64,000 nucleotides of DNA. It comes from Ruminococcus flavefaciens. GTDB taxonomy: Bacteria; Bacillota; Clostridia; Oscillospirales; Ruminococcaceae. The stretch spans positions 456,258 to 520,257 of the forward strand of contig JAMPIL010000001.1 in assembly GCA_023662725.1 (NCBI GenBank), in the 5' to 3' direction. The notes under the pieces are model-generated. The model was given only the letters and a program-made list of their open reading frames with translations, had not been told where the DNA came from and searched no databases. A program made the position numbers and the translations under genes. Below are positions 13,216-24,392 of the stretch, piece after piece (position 1 is the first letter of the stretch; each line of letters starts with the position of its first letter).

Positions 13216-14343
13216 TTACAGTCTGTTTTTGAAATCGTCATAGCCAAACTTCCTTAAAAGTTCGGTCGTTCCGTCCCTTTTCAGCAAAACTATTGAAGGC
13301 AGGGGCATTCCGTTGAAAGTATTATTCTTGACCATTGAATATATCGCCATATCTTCAAAAACGAGTTTATTTCCAACGTTAAGAGGTGTAACAAAAGAAT
13401 ATTCTCCTATTACATCTCCGGCAAGACAAGTCTGAGAACCAAGACGATATGTGTATTCAAGCTCTCCCGGATTCCCTGATCCTTTGAGCGGCGGACGGTA
13501 GGGCATTTCAAGTACGTCAGGCATATGACAGGCTGCAGATGTATCAAGAATAGCTATAGGCATATCATTTTCAATGATATCAAGAACTTCCGTTACGAGA
13601 TATCCGGCATTAAGAGCGACCGCCTCTCCCGGTTCGAGATAAACTTCAAGCCCGTATTTTGTCTGCATACGATTAATACAATTTTCAAGACGCTGAATAT
13701 CGTAATCCGAACGGGTGATGTGATGTCCTCCGCCGAAATTTATCCATTCCATTCCCGAAAGAACATCTCCGAATTTTTCCTCTACAGCATCAAGAGTTTT
13801 TTCAAGATCATCTGAATTCTGCTCACAAAGAGTGTGAAAATGCAGACCTGTAACTCCCTGCAAATCATCTCTGCGGAAATTCTTATTTGTTATTCCAAGA
13901 CGCGACTTAGGCGAGCACGGATCGTATATCTCATGTCCTTCCTGAGTTGAACATTCCGGATTTATGCGAAGTCCTATCTTCTTTCCGGCAGCCAACACAC
14001 GTTCTCGGTATTTATCAAGCTGAGCAAAAGAATTGAATATAATATGTCCGCAGTATGAGATTATCTCATCAAATTCTTCCTCACGGTAAGCTGCTGAAAA
14101 AACATGATTTACCTTGCCCATTTCGTCAAAACCGAGTTTTGCTTCATAAAGTCCGCTGCAAGCCGTTCCCGAAATATACTCCCCTATCAAAGGATAAAGA
14201 TGATAACAGGAAAAAGCTTTTTGTGCAAGAAGTATTTGACATCCCGTTCGGTTTTCAACTCCACGAAGAATTTCAAGGTTGCGAAGCAAACTATCCTCGT
14301 CAATAACATAACAGGGAGTTTTTAAATTTGAAATATTAAACAT
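13216..14343 (-). CDS. nspC: Carboxynorspermidine/carboxyspermidine decarboxylase
   Basis: A 375-residue PLP enzyme with the alanine-racemase-fold barrel. The PLP lysine is in LLAQKAF (K42), with CSPKSRLGI, HFHTLCEQ and the glycine-rich EWINFGGGHH following. The C-terminal DTSAACHMPDVLEMPY and GSQTCLAGD segments are diagnostic of the NspC family. It decarboxylates carboxyspermidine (or carboxynorspermidine) to spermidine. It directly follows the carboxyspermidine synthase gene with an 18-base gap, giving a complete alternative spermidine route. GGAG precedes the start. Confidence 0.95.
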   Translation of the reverse strand: MFNISNLKTPCYVIDEDSLLRNLEILRGVENRTGCQILLAQKAFSCYHLYPLIGEYISGTACSGLYEAKLGFDEMGKVNHVFSAAYREEEFDEIISYCGHIIFNSFAQLDKYRERVLAAGKKIGLRINPECSTQEGHEIYDPCSPKSRLGITNKNFRRDDLQGVTGLHFHTLCEQNSDDLEKTLDAVEEKFGDVLSGMEWINFGGGHHITRSDYDIQRLENCINRMQTKYGLEVYLEPGEAVALNAGYLVTEVLDIIENDMPIAILDTSAACHMPDVLEMPYRPPLKGSGNPGELEYTYRLGSQTCLAGDVIGEYSFVTPLNVGNKLVFEDMAIYSMVKNNTFNGMPLPSIVLLKRDGTTELLRKFGYDDFKNRL

Positions 14344-14361
14344 TTTGTTTTTCTCCGCATA

Positions 14362-15564
14362 TCAATCAACAAGAATCGGATCCAAATCCTCTTCCCAAGG
14401 CAGTCCCCACTTGTTAAGAGCTTCCATAAACGGATCGGGATCAAATTCTTCGATATTGTAAACTCCTGCTTTATTCCACTGACCTGTCATTATCATCATT
14501 GCGCCTATCATTGCCGGAACTCCTGTCGTATAGGAAATAGCCTGAGAACCGACTTCCTTATAGCACTCCTGATGATCGCAGATATTATAGAGATAATATG
14601 TCTTGTCCATGCCGTCCTTTTTACCTCTGAAAATACAGCCGATATTGGTTTTTCCTACCGTTCTCGAACCTAATGACGCAGGATCCGGAAGAACTGCTTT
14701 CAGGAACTGGAGCGGAACTATCTCTTTTCCCTCATACATAATAGGCTCGATCGAAGTCATTCCCACATTTTCAAGACATTTCAGATGCGTAAGATAGCTC
14801 TGACCGAACGTCATAAAGAAACGAATACGCTTGATTCCCTTAATATTTAAAGCGAGCGATTCCAGTTCCTCATGGTGAAGCAGGTACATATCCTTTTCGC
14901 CCACCCCCTTGAAATCGTATACACGCTTTATCTCCATAGGCTCGGTTTCAACCCATTTTCCGTCCTCGATATAGCTTCCCTTTGCCGAAACTTCACGGAT
15001 GTTTATTTCGGGATTGAAATTTGTTGCAAAAGGATAGCCGTGGTCTCCGCCGTTGCAGTCGAGAATATCAATATAGTTGATCTCGTCAAATTCATGCTTC
15101 ATAGCGTATGCGGAGAAAACTCCAGTTACTCCGGGATCAAATCCGCTTCCGAGAAGAGCTGTTATTCCCGCCTTTTCAAAGCGTTCACGGTATGCCCACT
15201 GCCACTTATACTCAAACTTTGCGGTATCAAGCGGTTCATAGTTTGCGGTGTCAACGTAGTGAGTTTTTGTTGCGAGACAAGCGTCCATGATCGTAAGATC
15301 CTGATAGGGAAGCGCAAGATTCAGAACAACGTCCGGCTTATATGACTCGATAAGGGCAATAAGTTCGTCAACATTGTCGGCATTTACCTGAGCTGTTTCA
15401 ATAACAGTTTTGGTAGTCGCCTGGAGTTTTTCTTTAAGAGCATCGCATTTTGATTTGGTGCGGCTTGCGATCATGATCCCCTCGAAAACCTCGCTGTTCT
15501 GACAGCATTTGTGAATTGCAACCGAGGCTACTCCTCCGCAGCCGATTATCATACATTTTTTCAT
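14362..15564 (-). CDS. Carboxynorspermidine/carboxyspermidine synthase (saccharopine dehydrogenase family)
   Basis: A 400-residue NAD(P)-dependent enzyme of the saccharopine dehydrogenase fold. It has an N-terminal Rossmann motif IIGCGGVASVA, NLALPYQDL, and LGSGFDPGVTGVF. In the Vibrio-type pathway it reductively condenses aspartate beta-semialdehyde with putrescine (or diaminopropane). The immediate downstream nspC homologue supports this over lysine-pathway saccharopine dehydrogenase. It sits in the same operon as SpeD and SpeE, which make spermidine by a different chemistry. Confidence 0.92.
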   Translation of the reverse strand: MKKCMIIGCGGVASVAIHKCCQNSEVFEGIMIASRTKSKCDALKEKLQATTKTVIETAQVNADNVDELIALIESYKPDVVLNLALPYQDLTIMDACLATKTHYVDTANYEPLDTAKFEYKWQWAYRERFEKAGITALLGSGFDPGVTGVFSAYAMKHEFDEINYIDILDCNGGDHGYPFATNFNPEINIREVSAKGSYIEDGKWVETEPMEIKRVYDFKGVGEKDMYLLHHEELESLALNIKGIKRIRFFMTFGQSYLTHLKCLENVGMTSIEPIMYEGKEIVPLQFLKAVLPDPASLGSRTVGKTNIGCIFRGKKDGMDKTYYLYNICDHQECYKEVGSQAISYTTGVPAMIGAMMIMTGQWNKAGVYNIEEFDPDPFMEALNKWGLPWEEDLDPILVD

Positions 15565-15585
15565 TTTATACTCTCCTTAAATAAT

Positions 15586-16077
15586 TTATAATTCATGATA
15601 ATACGGGCAGATATCTTCATATCGTCCGTCTTTCAGCCTGAATCCGCCCGGAATCGTTCCAAGCTGAACAAATCCAAGTCTTTCATACAGATGACGTGCG
15701 TGAACATTTGAAGACACGACCGCATTGAACTGAAGAACTCTGTAATCATGAGCCTTTCCCTGAATCAAGCAGTCTTTTACCAGCTTCTCACCTATGTGCA
15801 GACCTCTGCTCCTCTTTAAAACAGCATAGCTCGCATTACAGATATGTCCACATCGTCCGACGTTATTGGGATGCAGAATATATAATCCAAGAATTTTGCC
15901 GGTATCGCAATCAGCGGCTACTCCGCAGTATGTCTGCGAGGCAAAGAATTCCGTACTGCTTTCCTCATCCAGTAATTCCTCCTGTGGAAAAGCGATTCCC
16001 TCTTCAACCACTTCGTTCCATATATTTATCATTTCAGATAAATCTTTTGGGTTGTATTTTCTTACAATTATATTCAT
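15586..16077 (-). CDS. GNAT family N-acetyltransferase
   Basis: A 163-residue GNAT protein of the phosphinothricin-acetyltransferase-like group: VRKYNPKDLSEMINIWNEVV at the N-terminus, an acetyl-CoA-binding region around LKRSRGLHIGEKLV, and NVHARHLYERLGF near the C-terminus. Its start overlaps the stop of the upstream gene (ATGA). Its position in the polyamine operon makes polyamine or amine acetylation possible, but nothing in the sequence fixes the substrate. Confidence 0.8.
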   Translation of the reverse strand: MNIIVRKYNPKDLSEMINIWNEVVEEGIAFPQEELLDEESSTEFFASQTYCGVAADCDTGKILGLYILHPNNVGRCGHICNASYAVLKRSRGLHIGEKLVKDCLIQGKAHDYRVLQFNAVVSSNVHARHLYERLGFVQLGTIPGGFRLKDGRYEDICPYYHEL

Positions 16078-16541
16078 GAACTTTCACTCTTTTCGTTTTT
16101 CTTGAAAACAACTCTCAATACGATTCCGATAGTCAGAAAAAGCGCTCCCATACCAGTAAAAATAATACCGATAAATCCGGTAGTTTTATCAGACGGAGCA
16201 TAAAAATCTGTTGGATCATCCGGGTTGATTTTAAGCTCGACTATCTCTCCTGACCGAAAAGCCGGCGGATCAGAAGAAGTTTTGCTTTCAACACGATAAT
16301 CTTCTCCATTGTAAGTGAAACCAAAAACAGGCTTATACAGAACTTTCCCGCTGCGGTGATCACTGCTTTCAACCTGCAGATTTTCAACAACTTCCGCTCT
16401 GACCGATTCCGTACATTTCTGTGATTTAATTTTCGGAAGCATTAAAACTACGATTCCCACAATTATAAACAAGATCGAAAAAAGAATGAAAAGTGTTCCC
16501 ACTATTTTAGGATTATTCGTTCTGTACATAGTTTTACGCAT
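16074..16541 (-). CDS. DUF3592-like membrane protein
   Basis: A protein of 155 residues with two hydrophobic segments (about residues 14-36 and 122-145). A soluble middle portion (VLYKPVFGFTYNGEDYRVES, then GEIVELKINPDDPTDFY) matches the DUF3592 pattern of small two-pass membrane proteins. The ATG at 16541 is preferred because AGGAGG ends 9 bases upstream; an ATG three codons earlier directly touches that site. It is translationally coupled to the GNAT gene. Role unknown. Confidence 0.7.
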   Translation of the reverse strand: MRKTMYRTNNPKIVGTLFILFSILFIIVGIVVLMLPKIKSQKCTESVRAEVVENLQVESSDHRSGKVLYKPVFGFTYNGEDYRVESKTSSDPPAFRSGEIVELKINPDDPTDFYAPSDKTTGFIGIIFTGMGALFLTIGIVLRVVFKKNEKSESS

Positions 16542-16564
16542 GATTTGCATCCTCCTGTATGAGA

Positions 16565-17416
16565 TTAAGACATTGCCAGAAGCATTTCTCTTATTATCTT
16601 ACAGGCAACGGCTGTTGAAACTCCGCTCTGGTCGTAAACGGGGCTAAGCTCGTTCACATCGCAGGCAACTATATTCAGCTTACTGCAAACAAGCGTCAAA
16701 GCACGTCTCAGCTCGTCAAATGAGACTCCACCTGCTTCCGGAGTACCTGTTCCGGGAAAAATCGACGGATCGAGAACATCCAAATCCACTGTAAGATAGA
16801 CGTTTTTGCCCTTGAGTTTTTCCACAGTCTCCTCAAGTTCGTCAAAATTGAATTTATGCATCTCTGTATGCTCGTTTGCAAAAAGAAATTCCTCACGGTC
16901 GCCGCTTCTGATCCCAAACTGGAAAATATGACCGTCACCCACAAGCTCATGACATCTTCTCAGAACGCAGGCATGAGAGAGCTTCTGTCCAAGATAATCG
17001 TCACGCAGATCTGCATGAGCGTCAAAATGAACGATATAAAGTTCCTCGAATTTTTCTTTTACAGCCATAACAGAACCAAGCGTTACAAGATGTTCTCCGC
17101 CTATCATAAACGGGACTTTTCCGTCTGTGAGAATCATATCGGCTCTCATGGCGATATCGGCTACGGCTCTGTTCGTACTGCCGAAAGGAAGCTCTAAATC
17201 TCCGCTGTCAAAGTAACTATAGTCGAGCATATCCTTATCCTGATAAGGCGAATATGTCTCGATTCCGAAGCTTTCGTTTCTTATTGCTGCCGGAGCAAAT
17301 CTTGTTCCGGGACGAAAACTTGTTGTTCCGTCAAAGCCTGCTCCGAAAAGAACGATTTTTGAATCATAATATTCACTGTCACAGGCAATAAAGGTCTGGA
17401 TATTTTTATTCAACAT
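16565..17416 (-). CDS. speB: Agmatinase (ureohydrolase)
   Basis: A 283-residue ureohydrolase. The binuclear manganese ligands appear in GGEHLVTLG, HFDAHADLRDD and TVDLDVLDPS, and GTGTPEAGG and DVNELSP are also typical. It hydrolyses agmatine to putrescine and urea, and fits with the upstream arginine decarboxylase. Aminopropylagmatine hydrolysis is a possible alternative because speE is the adjacent gene. It overlaps the speE stop by 11 bases; GGAG for this gene lies inside speE. Confidence 0.93.
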   Translation of the reverse strand: MLNKNIQTFIACDSEYYDSKIVLFGAGFDGTTSFRPGTRFAPAAIRNESFGIETYSPYQDKDMLDYSYFDSGDLELPFGSTNRAVADIAMRADMILTDGKVPFMIGGEHLVTLGSVMAVKEKFEELYIVHFDAHADLRDDYLGQKLSHACVLRRCHELVGDGHIFQFGIRSGDREEFLFANEHTEMHKFNFDELEETVEKLKGKNVYLTVDLDVLDPSIFPGTGTPEAGGVSFDELRRALTLVCSKLNIVACDVNELSPVYDQSGVSTAVACKIIREMLLAMS

Positions 17417-18257
17417 CTTTAAGCAGCTCCTCTACATAATTTGGCAGGGCAAAGGCTCCTGCATGAAGTCTTGGATTGTAATAGCGTGTGCGTATTTCCT
17501 GCATACTCCACTTGATACCGTTGAAATCGTTCACAGGATGATATTTTTTTGAAGCAAATCCGAAAAGCCAGTGCCCCGAAGGATAAGTCGGGATATGAGC
17601 CTGATAAACCTTGCTTATCGGAAAACTTTCAACAATTCTTTTATGAGAACGCTGCATTGCCGCCGCATCCTCGTCGTAAAACGGACTTTCATGCTGATTG
17701 ACCATGATTCCATCCTCATGAAGAGCCTTAAAGCAGCTTCCGTAGAATTCCTTTGTGAAAAGACCTTCTCCCGGACCAAAGGGATCGGTAGAATCGACAA
17801 TTATAACGTCGTATTTATCCTCGCAGCGACGGATGAACTTCACTCCGTCCTCATAAAAAATATGAACTCTCGGATCGTCAAAACGACAAGCTGTAGTAGT
17901 CAGATATTTTTTGCTCACCTCTACCACCAGCTCGTCTATCTCCACAAGGTCAATGTTTTCAACAGAGCTGTATCTGGTCAGTTCACGGACTACTCCTCCA
18001 TCGCCTGCTCCGATAACGAGAATATTTTTCGGATTCGGATGAACTGCCATAGGAACGTGAGTTATCATTTCATGGTAGATAAATTCGTCCTTTTCCGTAA
18101 GCATCATGTAACCGTCAAGCGTGAGGAAACGTCCGAATTCCTTGGAATCGAAAATGTCTATCCTCTGAAACTCACTGTTTCCGCTGTAAAGCTGACGATC
18201 GACCTTTATTGAAAATTTAACGTTCGGTGTGTGACGCTCTGTAAACCATAGTTCCAT
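17406..18257 (-). CDS. speE: Spermidine synthase (polyamine aminopropyltransferase)
   Basis: A 283-residue aminopropyltransferase. WFTERHTPNVKFSIKV opens the protein; the nucleotide loop VIGAGDGGVVREL and the IVDSTDPFGPGEGLF segment form the decarboxylated-SAM and putrescine sites. It transfers an aminopropyl group from dcSAM to putrescine. The ATG at 18257 follows GGGAGG by 6 bases; the in-frame start six codons upstream overlaps the preceding gene. It partners with speD at the head of the operon. Confidence 0.95.
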   Translation of the reverse strand: MELWFTERHTPNVKFSIKVDRQLYSGNSEFQRIDIFDSKEFGRFLTLDGYMMLTEKDEFIYHEMITHVPMAVHPNPKNILVIGAGDGGVVRELTRYSSVENIDLVEIDELVVEVSKKYLTTTACRFDDPRVHIFYEDGVKFIRRCEDKYDVIIVDSTDPFGPGEGLFTKEFYGSCFKALHEDGIMVNQHESPFYDEDAAAMQRSHKRIVESFPISKVYQAHIPTYPSGHWLFGFASKKYHPVNDFNGIKWSMQEIRTRYYNPRLHAGAFALPNYVEELLKDVE

Positions 18258-18271
18258 ATAATTCCTCCCTA

Positions 18272-18721
18272 TCAAAATTTATTTTTCTCCATAACAAAAT
18301 TTATAAGAATAATTCCTTGCCGTTCTACCTGCTGTTCTTTAATAACCCTATAACCTCTTTTTTCAAAAAAGGGTCTTGATGTAATCGAGGCATGAGTAAC
18401 TATTTTTCCTTTAACTGACTGCTCCAATTCATTGCAGACAGCAGTTGCAACTCCTTTTCTCTGATAATCCCTATGAACATACAATCGGTCAAGATATCCT
18501 TCATCTATATCTCCAAAACCTATAATAATCTCATTCAATACGGCAACAATACTATAATGTTTTAGAAATGATCGATTCCATTCTTCCAAATCTGCTTCTT
18601 CCGGCGCCCAAACATTTAATTGTTCTTTCGTATAATCTCTTGCATTCACCGTATGAACCGTATCGTAAAACAGATTTCTCAACTCCTTGCAATCAGTTGT
18701 CTGATATTCTCTTATAATCAT
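18272..18721 (-). CDS. GNAT family N-acetyltransferase
   Basis: A 149-residue GNAT protein. The acetyl-CoA loop is VHRDYQRKGVATAV, preceded by GYLDRLY and followed by the ITSRPFFEKRGY segment characteristic of the family. It starts with a 4-base overlap on the preceding gene and ends 15 bases before speE, so it is part of the spe operon. A polyamine substrate is plausible from context only. Confidence 0.82.
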   Translation of the reverse strand: MIIREYQTTDCKELRNLFYDTVHTVNARDYTKEQLNVWAPEEADLEEWNRSFLKHYSIVAVLNEIIIGFGDIDEGYLDRLYVHRDYQRKGVATAVCNELEQSVKGKIVTHASITSRPFFEKRGYRVIKEQQVERQGIILINFVMEKNKF

Positions 18722-19209
18722 TTTAAATCTCCGAATTCTTTTAATGTCGCCGAAAGCCGATCTGCATCTGAAGTCTGAAAAATATACAGTAATTCTCTGT
18801 TTACACCTAAAAGAACTTCACAAACGTTATTTACCTTACACTCAATCCGTACTATATCTTTTTTCAAAATGAAGAAAACTCCGGTCTTATTTTTATTAAA
18901 AGTGACTATATAAAGCCTGTCCTCACAGATATAGATACTCCCATGAAGAACTCCTCTTCCGGTATGAAAATTACCGTTAGCCTTAAAAATAACTGGAGAA
19001 AAAATCATACTGTCTGCTTTCGCATATCTTTTACTCATTTTTCTCTCGGAAACCATAAGACACGGATAAAGAAGAAACGCAAATAAAATTCCGGAAAGAA
19101 TTATTAAACCAAAATACCAGACGCTTTTATCTTCCATTAAAACTACTGCAACGATAAGACATATGATTATATAAATTGTTCCCGTAAGGGCACAGATAAA
19201 CTTTTTCAT
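18718..19209 (-). CDS. Small membrane protein in the spe operon, function unknown
   Basis: A 163-residue protein with two N-terminal hydrophobic segments (about residues 3-23 and 29-50). A soluble C-terminal domain follows (RGVLHGSIYICEDRLYIVTF, then FFILKKDIVRIECKVN) that looks like a small PH-like or GRAM-like fold, though this is only an impression. The ATG at 19209 overlaps the speA stop as ATGA. The reading frame is open further upstream but runs inside speA, so the longer version is rejected. Confidence 0.7.
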   Translation of the reverse strand: MKKFICALTGTIYIIICLIVAVVLMEDKSVWYFGLIILSGILFAFLLYPCLMVSERKMSKRYAKADSMIFSPVIFKANGNFHTGRGVLHGSIYICEDRLYIVTFNKNKTGVFFILKKDIVRIECKVNNVCEVLLGVNRELLYIFQTSDADRLSATLKEFGDLK

Positions 19210-20651
19210 ATCAGAACATTGAGATGTTCGATGTTTATATCTTCCGTACCGGTCATTGAGCAGCCTTTTTCTTTCGCATATTTTATATACTGTATTATCT
19301 CGTCCGTTATAAGCTCTCCCGGAGCAAGTATCGGTATTCCCGGAGGATAGCACATTACAAATTCGCTGCATATATATCCTGCTGCTTCATCAAGCGGAAG
19401 CGATTTCTTATCGCCGTAAAAGGCTTTTCTCGGAGTTTCAGCGACTATAGGATTGATATACTCATGCGTGAGCAGTCCTGTTTCAGATTTGCCGAAACGC
19501 CGCTTTATTTCCGACATTGCGCTGATAAGACGCTCGATATCCCGGTTTCTGTCGCCTACGGAGATATATGCAAGAATATTGCCTATATCTCCGAATTCTA
19601 TCTGAATATCGTACTCGTCACGAAGCAGATCATAAACCTCGATTCCGGCAAGTCCTATCGGAAGAGTGAAAACGCTGAGCTTTGAAACATCAAAATCGTA
19701 AACGCTGTCACCGTTGATAAGCTCTTTTGAATAAGCGTAATATCCGCCTATCGAATTTATCTCGGAACGTGCATATTCAGCCATTTCAACAGTTTTTTCA
19801 AAAATCTCACGTCCGCTCAGAGCAAGTCTTTTTCGGGAAATATCAAGGCTTGAAAGCAAAAGATACGATGCGCTTGTTGTCTGAGTAAGGTTGATTATCT
19901 GGCGCATATAATCCGAATTTATTTTTTCTCCCATAATCAGAAATGAGCTTTGAGTAAGACTTCCTCCCGATTTATGCATACTTACCGAAGCAATATCTGC
20001 TCCGGCAGCCATAGCAGTTACCGGAAAATTTTCTCCGAAATAAAAATGAGTTCCATGAGCTTCGTCAACCAGAACCAGCATATTATGCTTGTGAGCAAGC
20101 TCAGTTATTTTTCTTAAATCGGAGCAGATTCCGTAATACGTCGGATTATTTACCATTATCGCCTTAGCGTCGGGATTTTCTCTGATTGCCTTCTCAACTT
20201 GTGAAATTGACATTCCAAGAGCTATTCCAAGCGTATTATTCACATCAGGATCAACATAAACCGGCACTGCGTCGCTTAGTATAAGAGCGTTTATTGCGCT
20301 TCGGTGAACGTTTCTCGGCATAATTATCTTATCGCCGCCTTTGCAGGCATACATTATCATGCTCTGAACGGCAGACGTCGTTCCCCCAACCATGAAAAAA
20401 GCGTTTGCCGCACCAAAAGCTTCTGCCGCAAGAGTTTCCGCATCCTTTATGACTGAAACAGGATGACAAAGGTTATCGAGCGGTTTCATTGAATTAACGT
20501 CAACGCTCATGCAGTCCTCGCCGAGAAATTCCGTAAGCTCCATGTTTCCTCTGCCACGCTTATGTCCGGGAACATCGAATGGGACTACACGCATACGGCG
20601 AAATCTTCTTAAAGCCTCATAAATAGGCGCATTAATCTGTGAAAGAGCCAT
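19206..20651 (-). CDS. speA: Arginine decarboxylase, PLP-dependent (Orn/Lys/Arg decarboxylase class I fold)
   Basis: A protein of 481 residues from this start, with aspartate-aminotransferase fold. [11 protein letters not shown] and [12 protein letters not shown] are near the N-terminus; ALVDEAHG-type [12 protein letters not shown] precedes the PLP lysine in SMHKSGGSL (about K227); [12 protein letters not shown] lies near the C-terminus. The family decarboxylates arginine, lysine or ornithine. The agmatinase gene in the same operon argues for arginine. The ATG at 20651 has GGAAGG about 12 bases upstream and overlaps speD by 20 bases; the exact start is uncertain, with an in-frame ATG four codons earlier. 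Confidence 0.9.
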
Positions 20652-21414
20652 TTCCGAACACATTCCTTCCGCTGAAAATTTCAATCATTTCTTTACGTAA
20701 AGCGTTTGTGATATCAAGTCTGCTTCTCGGAGAAAGTTCACGAACATCGGTGTTGAAAAGATAATTCTGAAGTTCGATCTCCTTTATAAGCATTTTTGTA
20801 TGAAACATATTTGCCTGATAAACATTGATATCAACAGCGTCGTATTTATCGAGAATAGCCTCATCGACATAATTCTGTATCGATGTGATATCATGATCTA
20901 TAAAAAGCTTTTCGCCGTCAAGATTACGTGTAAATCCTCTTACACGGTAATCCATGGTAATAATATCGGAATCAAAGCTTCCTATCAGGTAATCAAGAGC
21001 CGTAAGAGGAGTAATTTTTCCGCAGGTAGCAACATCTATATCCACACGGAATGTTGCGATATTCGTATCAGGATGATATTCGGGATAGGTATGAACCGTA
21101 ACGTGACTTTTGTCAAGATGAGCCACTGTTTCGCTTCCGCCGGCAGGTATCATTGTATCATCAGCAATAAGAAATGTTGCCGATGCTCCCTGCGGATCGT
21201 AGTCCTGACGTGATATGCTTAAAACCTGCGCACCTATCATTTCTGTAAGGTGAGTCATAATATCGGTAATACGCTCGGAATTATAAACCTCGTCAACATA
21301 GGCGATATAATCCAGCTGAGCCTTTGGAGTTCTGGCATAGCAAACGTCATATATATTAAAGCTTAATGATTTTGTCAGATTATTAAAGCCGTAAAGCTTC
21401 AGCTTATTTTCCAT
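20632..21414 (-). CDS. speD: S-adenosylmethionine decarboxylase proenzyme (E. coli-type)
   Basis: A 260-residue AdoMet decarboxylase of the long, E. coli-like class. The autocleavage region [18 protein letters not shown], in which the serine gives the pyruvoyl group, is intact. [16 protein letters not shown] and [13 protein letters not shown] follow. It supplies decarboxylated SAM to speE. The ATG at 21414 follows GAGGTG by 6 bases. It is the first gene after a structured leader RNA and an intrinsic terminator, so its expression is probably set by attenuation. Confidence 0.95.
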
Positions 21415-21446
21415 ATAACACACCTCAAAAAACATAAATTCAAATT

Positions 21447-21487
21447 AAAAACAAAAAACGCATACAGACTTATACAGCCTGTATGCG
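21447..21487 (-). terminator. Intrinsic terminator in the spe operon leader
   Basis: On the minus strand an 11-bp stem (CGCAUACAGGC / GUCUGUAUGCG, one G-U pair) with a 7-base loop is followed directly by six U and then more U-rich sequence. It lies only about 40 bases upstream of the speD start codon and downstream of the operon promoter. It would therefore stop transcription before speD unless bypassed. Confidence 0.85.
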
Positions 21488-21511
21488 CATGAAATACCAA
21501 AAAAACTTCAT
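21470..21511 (-). other. Possible 13-codon leader peptide ORF in the spe leader
   Basis: An ATG at 21511 opens a 13-codon frame (MKFFWYFMRIQAV) that stops with TAA inside the loop of the terminator hairpin. No good ribosome-binding site precedes it, so translation is doubtful. The placement recalls attenuator peptides of other amine-biosynthesis operons, but that is only analogy. Confidence 0.25.
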
Positions 21512-21766
21512 ATTGGCTTCAGAGTCTATATAAGCAAGATAACTACCCTTTACTACTCTTATTGACCTTTCACAAGCTGATGAAAACTTATAAAAACTTA
21601 ATCGTCGCTAAACAGATCTGTCATCACGATCGAATCAATAAGGCAACAGAAGTTGCCAGCCGAAATAATTCAGCGGTCGGCATCTGACCCGGCTGTCCGT
21701 ATGGCCTCGACTCCGTAAACGGAGTGGTCAAAATCTTGCTTTGAAACCGAAGCTTCTTTTGCAATT
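21490..21766 (-). ncRNA. Structured 5' leader RNA of the spe operon (candidate riboswitch, class unknown)
   Basis: Transcription from the promoter at 21773-21801 gives a leader of about 280 nt ahead of the terminator. A closing helix is visible: 21742-21748 pairs with 21515-21521 (GGUUUCA/UGAAGCC) and 21733-21740 pairs with 21533-21540 (AGCAAGAU/AUCUUGCU). Inside, UUGACC (21726-21731) can pair with GGUCAA (21562-21567). Four compact hairpins lie in series: 21710-21725 (ACUCCG-uuua-CGGAGU), 21675-21689 (GGUC/GACC), 21659-21674 (GCUGAA/UUCGGC) and 21642-21657 (GGCAAC-uucu-GUUGCC). I cannot match it to SAM, lysine, guanidine or T-box leaders. Ligand and mechanism are inference. Confidence 0.6.
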
Positions 21767-21772
21767 TATACT

Positions 21773-21801
21773 ATTTTATCATATTAATGATTTTATGTCA
21801 A
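21773..21801 (-). promoter_or_regulatory. Sigma-A promoter of the spe operon
   Basis: On the minus strand, TTGACA (21796-21801), 17 bases, then TAAAAT (21773-21778). Transcription would start near 21766, about 350 bases upstream of speD. Confidence 0.8.
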
Positions 21802-21818
21802 TAGATTTCTGAAAAAAA

Positions 21819-24392
21819 TCAGTTATCTTTGCATTTATTTTTAATTACCGACAAAACGAGCAGGAATATGACTGCTAATGCAGCCGCAGTTACTGAAACG
21901 GCTATTCCCTCCTTTTTCATGGGAGCCTCGTATTCTATCCTGATTTCATGCTCGCCGGATGATATCGGAAAACCGATAAATGCTGTGTTGGTTTTAAAAT
22001 ATTCCGTATCATTCCCATCAACAGTTATATGGAATCCCTTGTCGTATGGCAGCGACATATTAAACCAGCCGTCAGAGGTTACATTTATTTTTCCGGAAAC
22101 CGTATCGCCAAGAGATCCGCTTCTGTTTATTTCAAAAGCATCCTTATTATCCATGACCGAATCGAGAACAGATGCGTCCAGAGTGAAAATTCTTATATCC
22201 GAAATAGAATAATATCCCTTTGTGAATGTCATATCAAGCATTTCGATCGGTTCATCGGACGATATTACATATGTAAAATCATAATTTTTATTATTGTATT
22301 TCCAGTTCGGATTGCTCAGTTTATTTTTAACACCGTTTATCCCAACCGTAATATCTTTTTGCTTAGACAGCTTTCCGTAACGATTATCAGCTTTGGCAAG
22401 AAAGACAATAAACTTATCTTCGACTGCTTCTTCAAGCTTTAACGACAAACCAAACTGATCATCTGCTCTTATCATATACTTTCCGTTTTCAAAGCTTATA
22501 TTATCATTATTCATCAATTGACTCATGTCAGCACTTATCTGCTTTGTTAAGTGCGGCTCAATACCGCTGCTGTTCCTTTCGGGAACGATAATATTACTGA
22601 GAAGCGCCTCCGTTTTAAGCTCGTCGGGAAGGGAGTAAAATTTCTCCTCGCTCATCAGATCAGAAGAAGCATATCCCAAAGGCAGAGCATAATTATTCTT
22701 GAAAATCGTGTATTTTCCCGAATCTGAAACGATCTCCTCTCCATACATTCTCATATCTGCCGGAGCTATTCTGTAACGACATCCCATAAGAGCGTTGAAA
22801 ATAACGTTATACGGCGAATTCTGAACAGCAGTGTTCCTTACACGATTTTCACTGAGTGAATGTTTCAATCTGAATTCTCTGAAATAAGGATTATTAACAG
22901 ACGAATATGAATTTGTTGAAAGATACTCCATGCTGAAAATACGATTGACATAAATATCATCCGGAATACAGTCGGAAAAACGGTACAGTTCCGTATCAGA
23001 ATCAAGTACTTCAGCTACCTCAGCTTTGGTATCATTCTTATAGAAATCCCTAACTTTAAAGCTTTCAATAAAATTATCTCCGCAGCCGATTGAAATACAG
23101 ATGATCAATGACGAAGCAATACAATAATACTTAAGCAAATATTCTTTTTTCTTCTTCAGAACAAAGATCATGAATGCAATTACTATCATGCATTCGCATA
23201 TGTAAATCAGAATAAAATATTTCTTAGTAGTAATATAAAAAGTGGATATTACTATCATCACAGCATAAATTACCAGCGATATCTTTATATCTTTTTTTAT
23301 AAGTCTTTCAGATGACAAAAAAGCTCCGCATATAAGAAGCATTACCGGAAGAAGCGGAATAAAAGATTTTCCATCAATATACATTCCGGCATTAAGCGTA
23401 TAATTTATAATCGGAAAAACAGCGCAGCACAGAAGCGATACTGAAAGAAATTTATCCTGTAATCTGCCGTTTTTCAGAAGATAAATTGCTCCGATAACTC
23501 CCACAGCAGTAAATCCGACAGAATATCCGCTGTAAAGTATCGTTGTAAAATTTATCTGCGGAATAAACATCTTCCAAAGAGCAGGTCTCCGACTTGTTTC
23601 ATCCCTTCCCGAAAGTATTGCGGAAAGAGTCGGGAGCCAAAAATGCGCTGAAATAAGGCATCCAAAAGCAGCACCGACAATTTTTCTCCAGCATGACAGC
23701 CATGCCGATTTAAAACTGAACTTTCCGTTTTTCTCAATCTCAAGGTAGACCGTATAAAGTCCGACGCCGACAAAACTTCCGATACTAAAATAAAAACTAC
23801 AGCACATAATGCAGTAAGCCAATATAAGCATCAGAAACGTATTTTTTACGCTGTCCTTTTTTCTGCAAACGAAAAGCATTGCCAGAAGAAATGGGAAATA
23901 ATTCATGAACATTATCTGACAATGGCTGTGGTAAAAAATTCCGCCGGAGCATAAGAACATTATTGCAAGAACAAGAGAAATTTTCCGACCGAAATGTCCC
24001 TTGAAAAATTTATAGCTCATCAAAGCCGAAATAATAACTGTAGCCAGGCTTAATACCTCAATATATATGCTCATAGGGACAAACGGAAGCGCATATGCCG
24101 GAAGATAAAGAGGATTTGCGATTCCGTAATAACCGAAATTATAAATATTCTGTCCGCTGCCAAGCTGCAATGCAAAATCCGGAAAAATATCATGCGTTTC
24201 GTAAAACCGCATTCTGAAATATTCCGGAATCGGAAAATGCTGACTTTTCCAGTCTGTATTTGAACCCCAGACTATTCCTTTATGCATAATAATCATTGTT
24301 GCAAAAACTAAAACAGCGAATATCGAGAATATGACCGCAACAGCGGTTCTGTCCGGATATTTCCCCCAATAAGCTTTAATTTTTTTTAGCAT
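21819..24392 (-). CDS. YfhO family membrane protein (GT-C-like glycosyltransferase family)
   Basis: A protein of 857 residues. About a dozen or more transmembrane segments fill the first 450 residues, including an early WGSNTDWKSQHFPIPEYFR loop with acidic residues like the first periplasmic loop of GT-C enzymes. An extracytoplasmic domain (about 460-830) and a final membrane helix (VTAAALAVIFLLVLSVI) follow. YfhO proteins in Bacillus are linked to glycosylation of lipoteichoic acid or membrane sugar transfer. The ATG at 24392 follows GGAGG by 5 bases. It is the last gene after mutS2, 21 bases downstream. Confidence 0.85.
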   Translation of the reverse strand: MLKKIKAYWGKYPDRTAVAVIFSIFAVLVFATMIIMHKGIVWGSNTDWKSQHFPIPEYFRMRFYETHDIFPDFALQLGSGQNIYNFGYYGIANPLYLPAYALPFVPMSIYIEVLSLATVIISALMSYKFFKGHFGRKISLVLAIMFLCSGGIFYHSHCQIMFMNYFPFLLAMLFVCRKKDSVKNTFLMLILAYCIMCCSFYFSIGSFVGVGLYTVYLEIEKNGKFSFKSAWLSCWRKIVGAAFGCLISAHFWLPTLSAILSGRDETSRRPALWKMFIPQINFTTILYSGYSVGFTAVGVIGAIYLLKNGRLQDKFLSVSLLCCAVFPIINYTLNAGMYIDGKSFIPLLPVMLLICGAFLSSERLIKKDIKISLVIYAVMIVISTFYITTKKYFILIYICECMIVIAFMIFVLKKKKEYLLKYYCIASSLIICISIGCGDNFIESFKVRDFYKNDTKAEVAEVLDSDTELYRFSDCIPDDIYVNRIFSMEYLSTNSYSSVNNPYFREFRLKHSLSENRVRNTAVQNSPYNVIFNALMGCRYRIAPADMRMYGEEIVSDSGKYTIFKNNYALPLGYASSDLMSEEKFYSLPDELKTEALLSNIIVPERNSSGIEPHLTKQISADMSQLMNNDNISFENGKYMIRADDQFGLSLKLEEAVEDKFIVFLAKADNRYGKLSKQKDITVGINGVKNKLSNPNWKYNNKNYDFTYVISSDEPIEMLDMTFTKGYYSISDIRIFTLDASVLDSVMDNKDAFEINRSGSLGDTVSGKINVTSDGWFNMSLPYDKGFHITVDGNDTEYFKTNTAFIGFPISSGEHEIRIEYEAPMKKEGIAVSVTAAALAVIFLLVLSVIKNKCKDN

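Follow-up and report, generated by a model that had tools for sequence, protein, structure and literature searches.

The window, as we call the whole 64,000-nucleotide stretch of DNA that was analysed, carries on its minus strand an operon-like run of genes (13216-21435) in which both known routes to spermidine are represented, one by speD and speE and the other by genes resembling CASDH and nspC. From the upstream end, its annotated members are as follows.

20632..21435 (likely start 21414), minus strand: speD, S-adenosylmethionine decarboxylase (TIGR03331 above cut-off; PF02675)
19206..20684, minus strand: Orn/Lys/Arg decarboxylase (PF01276 above cut-off; NCBIfam matches below cut-off)
17406..18275, minus strand: speE, spermidine synthase (NF002010 and TIGR00417 above cut-off)
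16565..17416, minus strand: agmatinase (TIGR01230 above cut-off)
14362..15564, minus strand: saccharopine-dehydrogenase-type protein, probable carboxynorspermidine dehydrogenase (CASDH) (PF16653, PF03435; NF043000 at 406 bits, under its cut-off of 800)
13216..14343, minus strand: probable nspC, carboxynorspermidine decarboxylase (70% identity to the protein of locus L053, which is above the TIGR01047 nspC cut-off; PF00278)

One other open reading frame of this operon is presumably acetyltransferase-like.

The speD leader and its Rfam match

Ahead of speD on the same strand, a promoter-like site is followed by a leader of about 310-315 nt and a terminator.

21773..21801, minus strand: promoter-like site, −35 TTGACA at 21796-21801 and −10 TAAAAT at 21773-21778, 17-nt spacer; a consensus match only
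21677..21730, minus strand: RF02440 (SpF59 sRNA, ldcC RNA) domain, putative accessory 5′ module; 72.9 bits, cut-off 37.2, model positions 1-54 of 54
21520..21730, minus strand: whole conserved RNA, full-length match to the covariance model R1 described below; 115.8 bits, E = 2.1e-29, the window sequence being among the 31 rows of R1
21453..21488, minus strand: intrinsic terminator, 13-pair stem 21488-21458, T-run to 21453

A preliminary description, made from the letters alone, had placed here a consensus promoter, a bulged closing helix with internal hairpins and an intrinsic terminator about 40 nt before speD, and each of these was recovered. The promoter-like site (21801-21773) agrees with 11 of 12 consensus letters and has a TG before its −10 element. 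A scan over 1.6 kb returned six such sites against 5.2 expected in shuffles, and the mere presence of one is within chance; this one is the top-scoring of the six and is well placed. Terminator-like sites numbered four, against 1.2 expected. The likely start of speD, ATG 21414 with GAGGTG ahead of it at 21421-21426, lies about 43 nt past the terminator stem. The 315-nt leader has a folding energy of −109.2 kcal/mol compared with −76.7 (s.d. 4.5) in shuffles (z = −7.18; none of 100 shuffles reached this stability), and its predicted fold contains a bulged closing helix, with strands within 21733-21756 and 21516-21540, and several internal hairpins. This z-score and the covariation reported below argue against chance structure, and the leader is confirmed as real, with promoter, structured RNA and terminator placed as first described.

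RF02440, a 54-nt family typed as sRNA in Rfam and present in one copy in this genome, is the sole Rfam family to reach its cut-off in the leader. Membership of a known Rfam riboswitch family was therefore dropped, in agreement with the preliminary description, which had recognized no SAM-I, lysine, guanidine or T-box elements. That description had missed the Rfam family at 21730-21677 and the extent of the conserved RNA, 21730-21520, and its suggestion of novelty survives in part: the match to RF02440 is significant, but the family accounts for just the first quarter, at the 5′ end, of an RNA conserved over about 200 nt, carries the type sRNA and does not occur in seven members that were checked. 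For the remaining conserved part, 3′ of the RF02440 domain, Rfam gave no match at its cut-offs. The words '(ldcC RNA)' in the Rfam description imply that someone had linked the family to ldcC.

Conservation was followed in A1, an alignment of 67 leaders with less than 80% identity to each other that was not fitted to any structure (149 leaders could be excised, 93 remained below 80% identity, 74 were clean-ended and 67 entered A1). It extends about 150 nt beyond the Rfam domain in long, nearly invariant stretches that end in ...CUUGUGAAACGGUCAAUAAGAGUAGUAAAAGUA..UUUGCUAUAUAGACUCUGA. At the Rfam cut-offs nothing matches in the seven members in question, namely L184, L186, L187, L188 and, from the same genus as the window, L214-L216; in them the RF02440 module is absent or replaced and the 3′ domain is kept. 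Because such members retain the 3′ domain, RF02440 would constitute an accessory 5′ module, and the conserved RNA looks modular.

Distribution and downstream genes

The core pattern of RF02440 occurs on at least 118 contigs of named genomes, with Bacillus, Neobacillus, Paenibacillus, Kurthia, Acidaminococcus, Phascolarctobacterium, Faecalibacterium and Blautia among those listed. It is present in 159 of 163 loci; the others (L041, L043, L044 and L045) were found by R1, and the matches in their genomes precede speD. Many loci are close kin and some are duplicated (L018/L146 and L036/L072 were each judged a single contig present in two collections), so the counts given here are not independent.

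R1 is a covariance model of the whole RNA, with 199 positions, 42 pairs and 31 rows, of which 28 were selected by length and the others are L001, L003 and L024; L077, L098 and L160 were omitted. R1 matches 99 of 100 sources in one set and 41 of 41 in another, a recovery that serves as a check and not as proof, as many of these sequences resemble its own rows and the window and L001 are the same place. Its single miss, L049 (Solirubrobacteraceae), was rejected as a member and regarded as a chance pattern match. R1 has no match in 198 genomes of the actinobacterial phylum of L049, an empty result that shows little without a positive control.

RF02440, whose 54 positions correspond at full length to the 5′ domain of the present RNA, misses members that keep only the rest. 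In 398 genomes drawn across the phylum, R1 is found in 25, comprising all 18 with RF02440, each matched by R1 at full length, and 7 more; among 149 relatives it is found in 87, against 67 for RF02440. Two other phyla yielded R1 matches as well, that of the Synergistaceae genome L125 in 12 of 149 genomes and that of the Spirochaetes genome L095 in 4 of 149. The RNA of about 200 nt is thus conserved in relatives of Ruminococcus, in Bacillus, Paenibacillus and Negativicutes, and in Synergistota and Spirochaetota genomes.

A few matches depart from the common form. In L193-L207, from the Synergistaceae and Spirochaetes phyla, several helices look shifted when judged by eye (for example, UGAGC/GGCUCA for the helix P7 listed below), and these sequences could be used as anchors for an improved model. 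The conserved RNA of L012 (G054:C38) is apparently interrupted, yielding two partial R1 matches or one stretched over 345 nt. G006 and G069 each have two R1 matches on two contigs, which may reflect duplication or assembly mixture.

Gene identity played no part in the searches that gathered the loci. Of the 159 loci, 154 have at least 300 nt downstream, and in 151 of these the next gene, classed by tblastn to a few references, is a polyamine gene: speD (65), an Orn/Lys/Arg decarboxylase gene (42), a CASDH-like gene (27, with many Bacillus and Paenibacillus; nspC is next in L053, the sole named case) or a potA-like gene (17, of which L048 and eight more were verified by family model, all above the TIGR01187 cut-off). 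The three non-polyamine loci are L030 (M28 peptidase), L049 and L148 (451 nt of sequence). In L030, which had matched only itself, and in L212 (G142), full-length RNA and terminator stand ahead of an M28 peptidase gene (PF04389) and not a polyamine gene.

The same association appears in each set searched with R1. Polyamine genes follow 25 of 25 matches in the 398-genome draw (the window's genome included), 16 of 16 in the Synergistaceae and Spirochaetes phyla (the L125 and L095 genomes included) and 89 of 90 in the relatives, where the split match of G054 is counted as two. Of these 90, 81 lie 61-350 nt upstream of speD on the same strand; the other nine precede a decarboxylase gene (seven), a pot-type transporter gene and an M28 peptidase gene. 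By genome, 79 relatives have both RNA and speD, 8 the RNA only, 17 speD only and 45 neither (Fisher P = 5e-16, kinship ignored); some of the 17 of 96 speD-bearing relatives without an R1 match are fragments at contig ends.

Helices, terminator and antiterminator

The helices of the conserved RNA and the strands of the computed switch lie in the window as follows.

21733..21756, minus strand: P1 closing helix, 5′ strand (predicted fold; covariation by strand swapping)
21516..21540, minus strand: P1 closing helix, 3′ strands, AUCUUGCU at 21533-21540 and the GAAGC end at 21516
21642..21657, minus strand: hairpin GGCAAC-UUCU-GUUGCC (helix 4), four pairs changed on both sides
21635..21642, minus strand: P5, 5′ strand CUUAUUGA (helix 5), nearly invariant
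21558..21565, minus strand: P5, 3′ strand UCAAUAAG (alignment fold)
21585..21594, minus strand: P6, 5′ strand UUUAUAAGUU (helix 7), nearly invariant
21568..21578, minus strand: P6, 3′ strand AGCUUGUGAAA, putative switching strand (alignment fold and antiterminator test)
21521..21559, minus strand: P7 region AGAGU...ACUCU (helix 8), two pairs with changes on both sides; the ACUCU side is shared with P1
21570..21580, minus strand: antiterminator strand UCAGCUUGUGA, pairs with 21474-21484 at −12.0 kcal/mol
21474..21484, minus strand: terminator 5′ arm AUACAGGCUGU, partner of 21570-21580

In the consensus fold of A1, which was derived from the same alignment, 96.6% of cells are paired, compared with 28-44% in slid controls. 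Changes on both sides occur at 18 pairs and amount to 187 cells against 54 (s.d. 10) in shuffles, 0 of 500 being as high, in a test where related sequences may exceed shuffles without structure. The covariation is clearest in helices 2 and 4; helix 6 and the pair that closes helix 1 also have good support. P5 and P6 are almost free of variation and so are backed mainly by conservation. The 5′ strand of P1 is not alignable by sequence, so this helix was tested by swapping strands: the cognate pairing beats the swapped mean in 57 of 67 leaders for the inner part and 56 of 67 for the outer, against 31 of 67 for a control. Conservation and covariation in related leaders, on which the preliminary description had made its proposal depend, are thus both present.

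Applied to 89 of the 93 leaders, a fixed rule found a terminator in 68, with about 16 expected from shuffles: 25 of 36 in the speD class, 24 of 33 in the decarboxylase class, 4 of 5 in the CASDH class and 15 of 15 in the potA class, which counts L030 and whose leaders were taken as a fixed 190 nt. Some of the 21 without one by this rule may act otherwise. The terminator 5′ arm is complementary to the P6 3′ strand CAACUUGUGA (..GCACAUCAACUUGUGA). Across the 68 leaders with a terminator, this antiterminator duplex averages −15.3 kcal/mol for cognate strands, −11.6 for swapped strands and −7.3 with a shuffled arm; the cognate duplex beats the swapped mean in 64 of 68, and when three other leader segments are put in place of the P6 strand this falls to 23, 29 and 28 of 68. 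Pairing of the conserved core CAUACGGACAGCC with the terminator 5′ arm was tried and failed, the cognate being better in only 29 of 68, and the terminator 3′ arm gave no signal against the P6 strand (31 of 68).

Because the antiterminator strand is the 3′ side of P6, P6 and the antiterminator are mutually exclusive. The antiterminator nests around P7, the 3′ side of which is shared with P1; P7 formed in 50 of 62 leaders with the antiterminator imposed and in 16 of 62 in the free fold. Nearest-neighbour energies place the unconstrained fold below the antiterminator state, with a mean difference of about 7 kcal/mol and one of 14 in the window. The read-through state, being costlier, would thus need co-transcriptional kinetics, and this cost is the chief weakness of the modelled energetic picture.

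This RNA shares with transcription-attenuating riboswitches a conserved structure in the 5′ leader, a computed platform of terminator and mutually exclusive antiterminator, and downstream genes of one metabolic theme. We regard it as probable, on balance of the comparative evidence, that this large and widespread RNA is of the riboswitch type, with a polyamine (spermidine most likely) as its ligand, and that it shuts polyamine synthesis and import operons by premature transcription termination. With ligand bound, P1, P5 and P6 would form and hold the strand CAACUUGUGA in the aptamer, the terminator would form and transcription would stop. Without ligand, the same strand would pair with the terminator 5′ arm around hairpin P7, and polymerase would read into speD. 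The RF02440 domain would be dispensable to this exchange, as the accessory module that some members lack or replace. From gene context we infer which ligand is bound, which way the switch works and that binding is direct and protein-free; spermidine is preferred on grounds of feedback logic and because the genes controlled cover synthesis with SAM, synthesis without SAM and import. The RNA is very probably a transcription attenuator of polyamine genes and probably a riboswitch. The preliminary proposal of a transcription-attenuating riboswitch accordingly fits the conservation, covariation, gene association, terminator and covarying antiterminator, and is qualified by the significant Rfam match.

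Alternative readings and known systems

The same terminator and antiterminator could be read by an RNA-binding protein, perhaps a polyamine-responsive one, with the RNA itself not the sensor. We consider this unlikely: the comparative evidence shows attenuation in cis and is silent on who senses. In our judgement, however, about 200 nt with long, near-invariant unpaired stretches are more aptamer-like than a protein site, and among the genes downstream, to which the inspection was confined, no regulator gene is common to the loci, which makes this a weak point.

A riboswitch that responds to some other compound of the pathway (putrescine, agmatine, SAM, dcSAM, MTA, arginine or lysine) is doubtful. 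The enzymes encoded by speD, the decarboxylase gene and speE do touch SAM, dcSAM and amino acids, but the RNA also precedes CASDH-like genes (27 of 154, with nspC next in L053) and potA-type genes (17 of 154), and CASDH/nspC and potA-type genes make no use of SAM or dcSAM. Of the ligands put forward in the preliminary description, SAM, dcSAM and arginine are for this reason poor common denominators and a polyamine is favoured; putrescine is possible.

A stand-alone small RNA, the alternative named in the preliminary description and the type assigned to RF02440, is very improbable. RF02440 is presumably named after pneumococcal F59, and we take SP0916 to be a Lys/Orn/Arg decarboxylase gene. F59 is listed as an 82-nt sRNA between SP0915 and SP0916 (PMC3395615, in part), and a terminated leader could act in trans as well. 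Nevertheless, almost all of the counted copies stand ahead of a polyamine gene in the same orientation, and a covarying antiterminator makes sense only in cis. Ribosome-mediated attenuation through a leader peptide is scarcely credible. In 59 of 67 leaders a TTG-started frame of at least six codons opens at one shared alignment column, and in 42 the stop column is shared too. Those 42, however, have no Shine-Dalgarno-like motif upstream; the frame falls within a paired segment, under sequence constraint in any case, and its counterpart in the window would end after four codons.

For the spermidine-sensing riboswitch we prefer, the wider reading, towards which we lean, is that it represents a major natural class of polyamine (spermidine) riboswitches in Bacillota, with further members in Synergistota and Spirochaetota. 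Such an RNA, about 200 nt long and with two states, would govern polyamine uptake as well as spermidine synthesis by either route, and the part catalogued so far, under the label of a streptococcal sRNA, would be no more than a dispensable 5′ module of 54 nt. In the literature searched, which left outside most subscription papers and all preprints, we found no report of RF02440, SpF59 or 'ldcC RNA' as a riboswitch. A term search of main texts (PMC6429828, PMC8632094, PMC11109978, PMC11477304 and PMC6296669, each in part) returned no such RNA, and the string SpF59 occurs in PMC12211059 (on Legionella genomes) and PMC8946176 (on ubiquitin). The RNA is thus partly catalogued, and its function is unexplained in the sources searched.

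Several known leaders invite comparison. The ABC-leader, the leader of an ABC transporter operon, is a predicted attenuator upstream of potABCD in Haemophilus and Pasteurella (PMC2965389, in part); it is gammaproteobacterial and, compared by description only, resembles the present RNA in preceding a polyamine importer. The speF motif, for which no metabolite binding is reported in the consulted part of PMC11477304, and the odc1 motif, labelled a uORF motif in an excerpt of PMC8632094, are also leaders of polyamine decarboxylase genes, but they are alphaproteobacterial, and with the Rfam models the present leader matches neither up to E = 10.

Closest in logic is the spermidine riboswitch of PMC10853860 (consulted in part), a SAM-I variant with 13 aligned representatives that acts as an off-switch by transcription termination before speE, speB, speD and ldcC, and whose authors state that further polyamine riboswitch classes seem certain to await discovery. 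The present RNA may work like it, as a termination-type off-switch before polyamine genes, its sign being deduced from gene context. It is not a member: 21400-21850 has no SAM-I match up to E = 10, and the architecture is different and larger than that described in the same excerpt. On this reading, the orphan Rfam sRNA RF02440 would become one module of a larger cis-acting RNA, whose defined switching strand makes polyamine sensing in Gram-positive and gut bacteria directly testable. The candidate is also far commoner than the sole spermidine riboswitch class that we found in print, with its 13 representatives in the part of PMC10853860 consulted.
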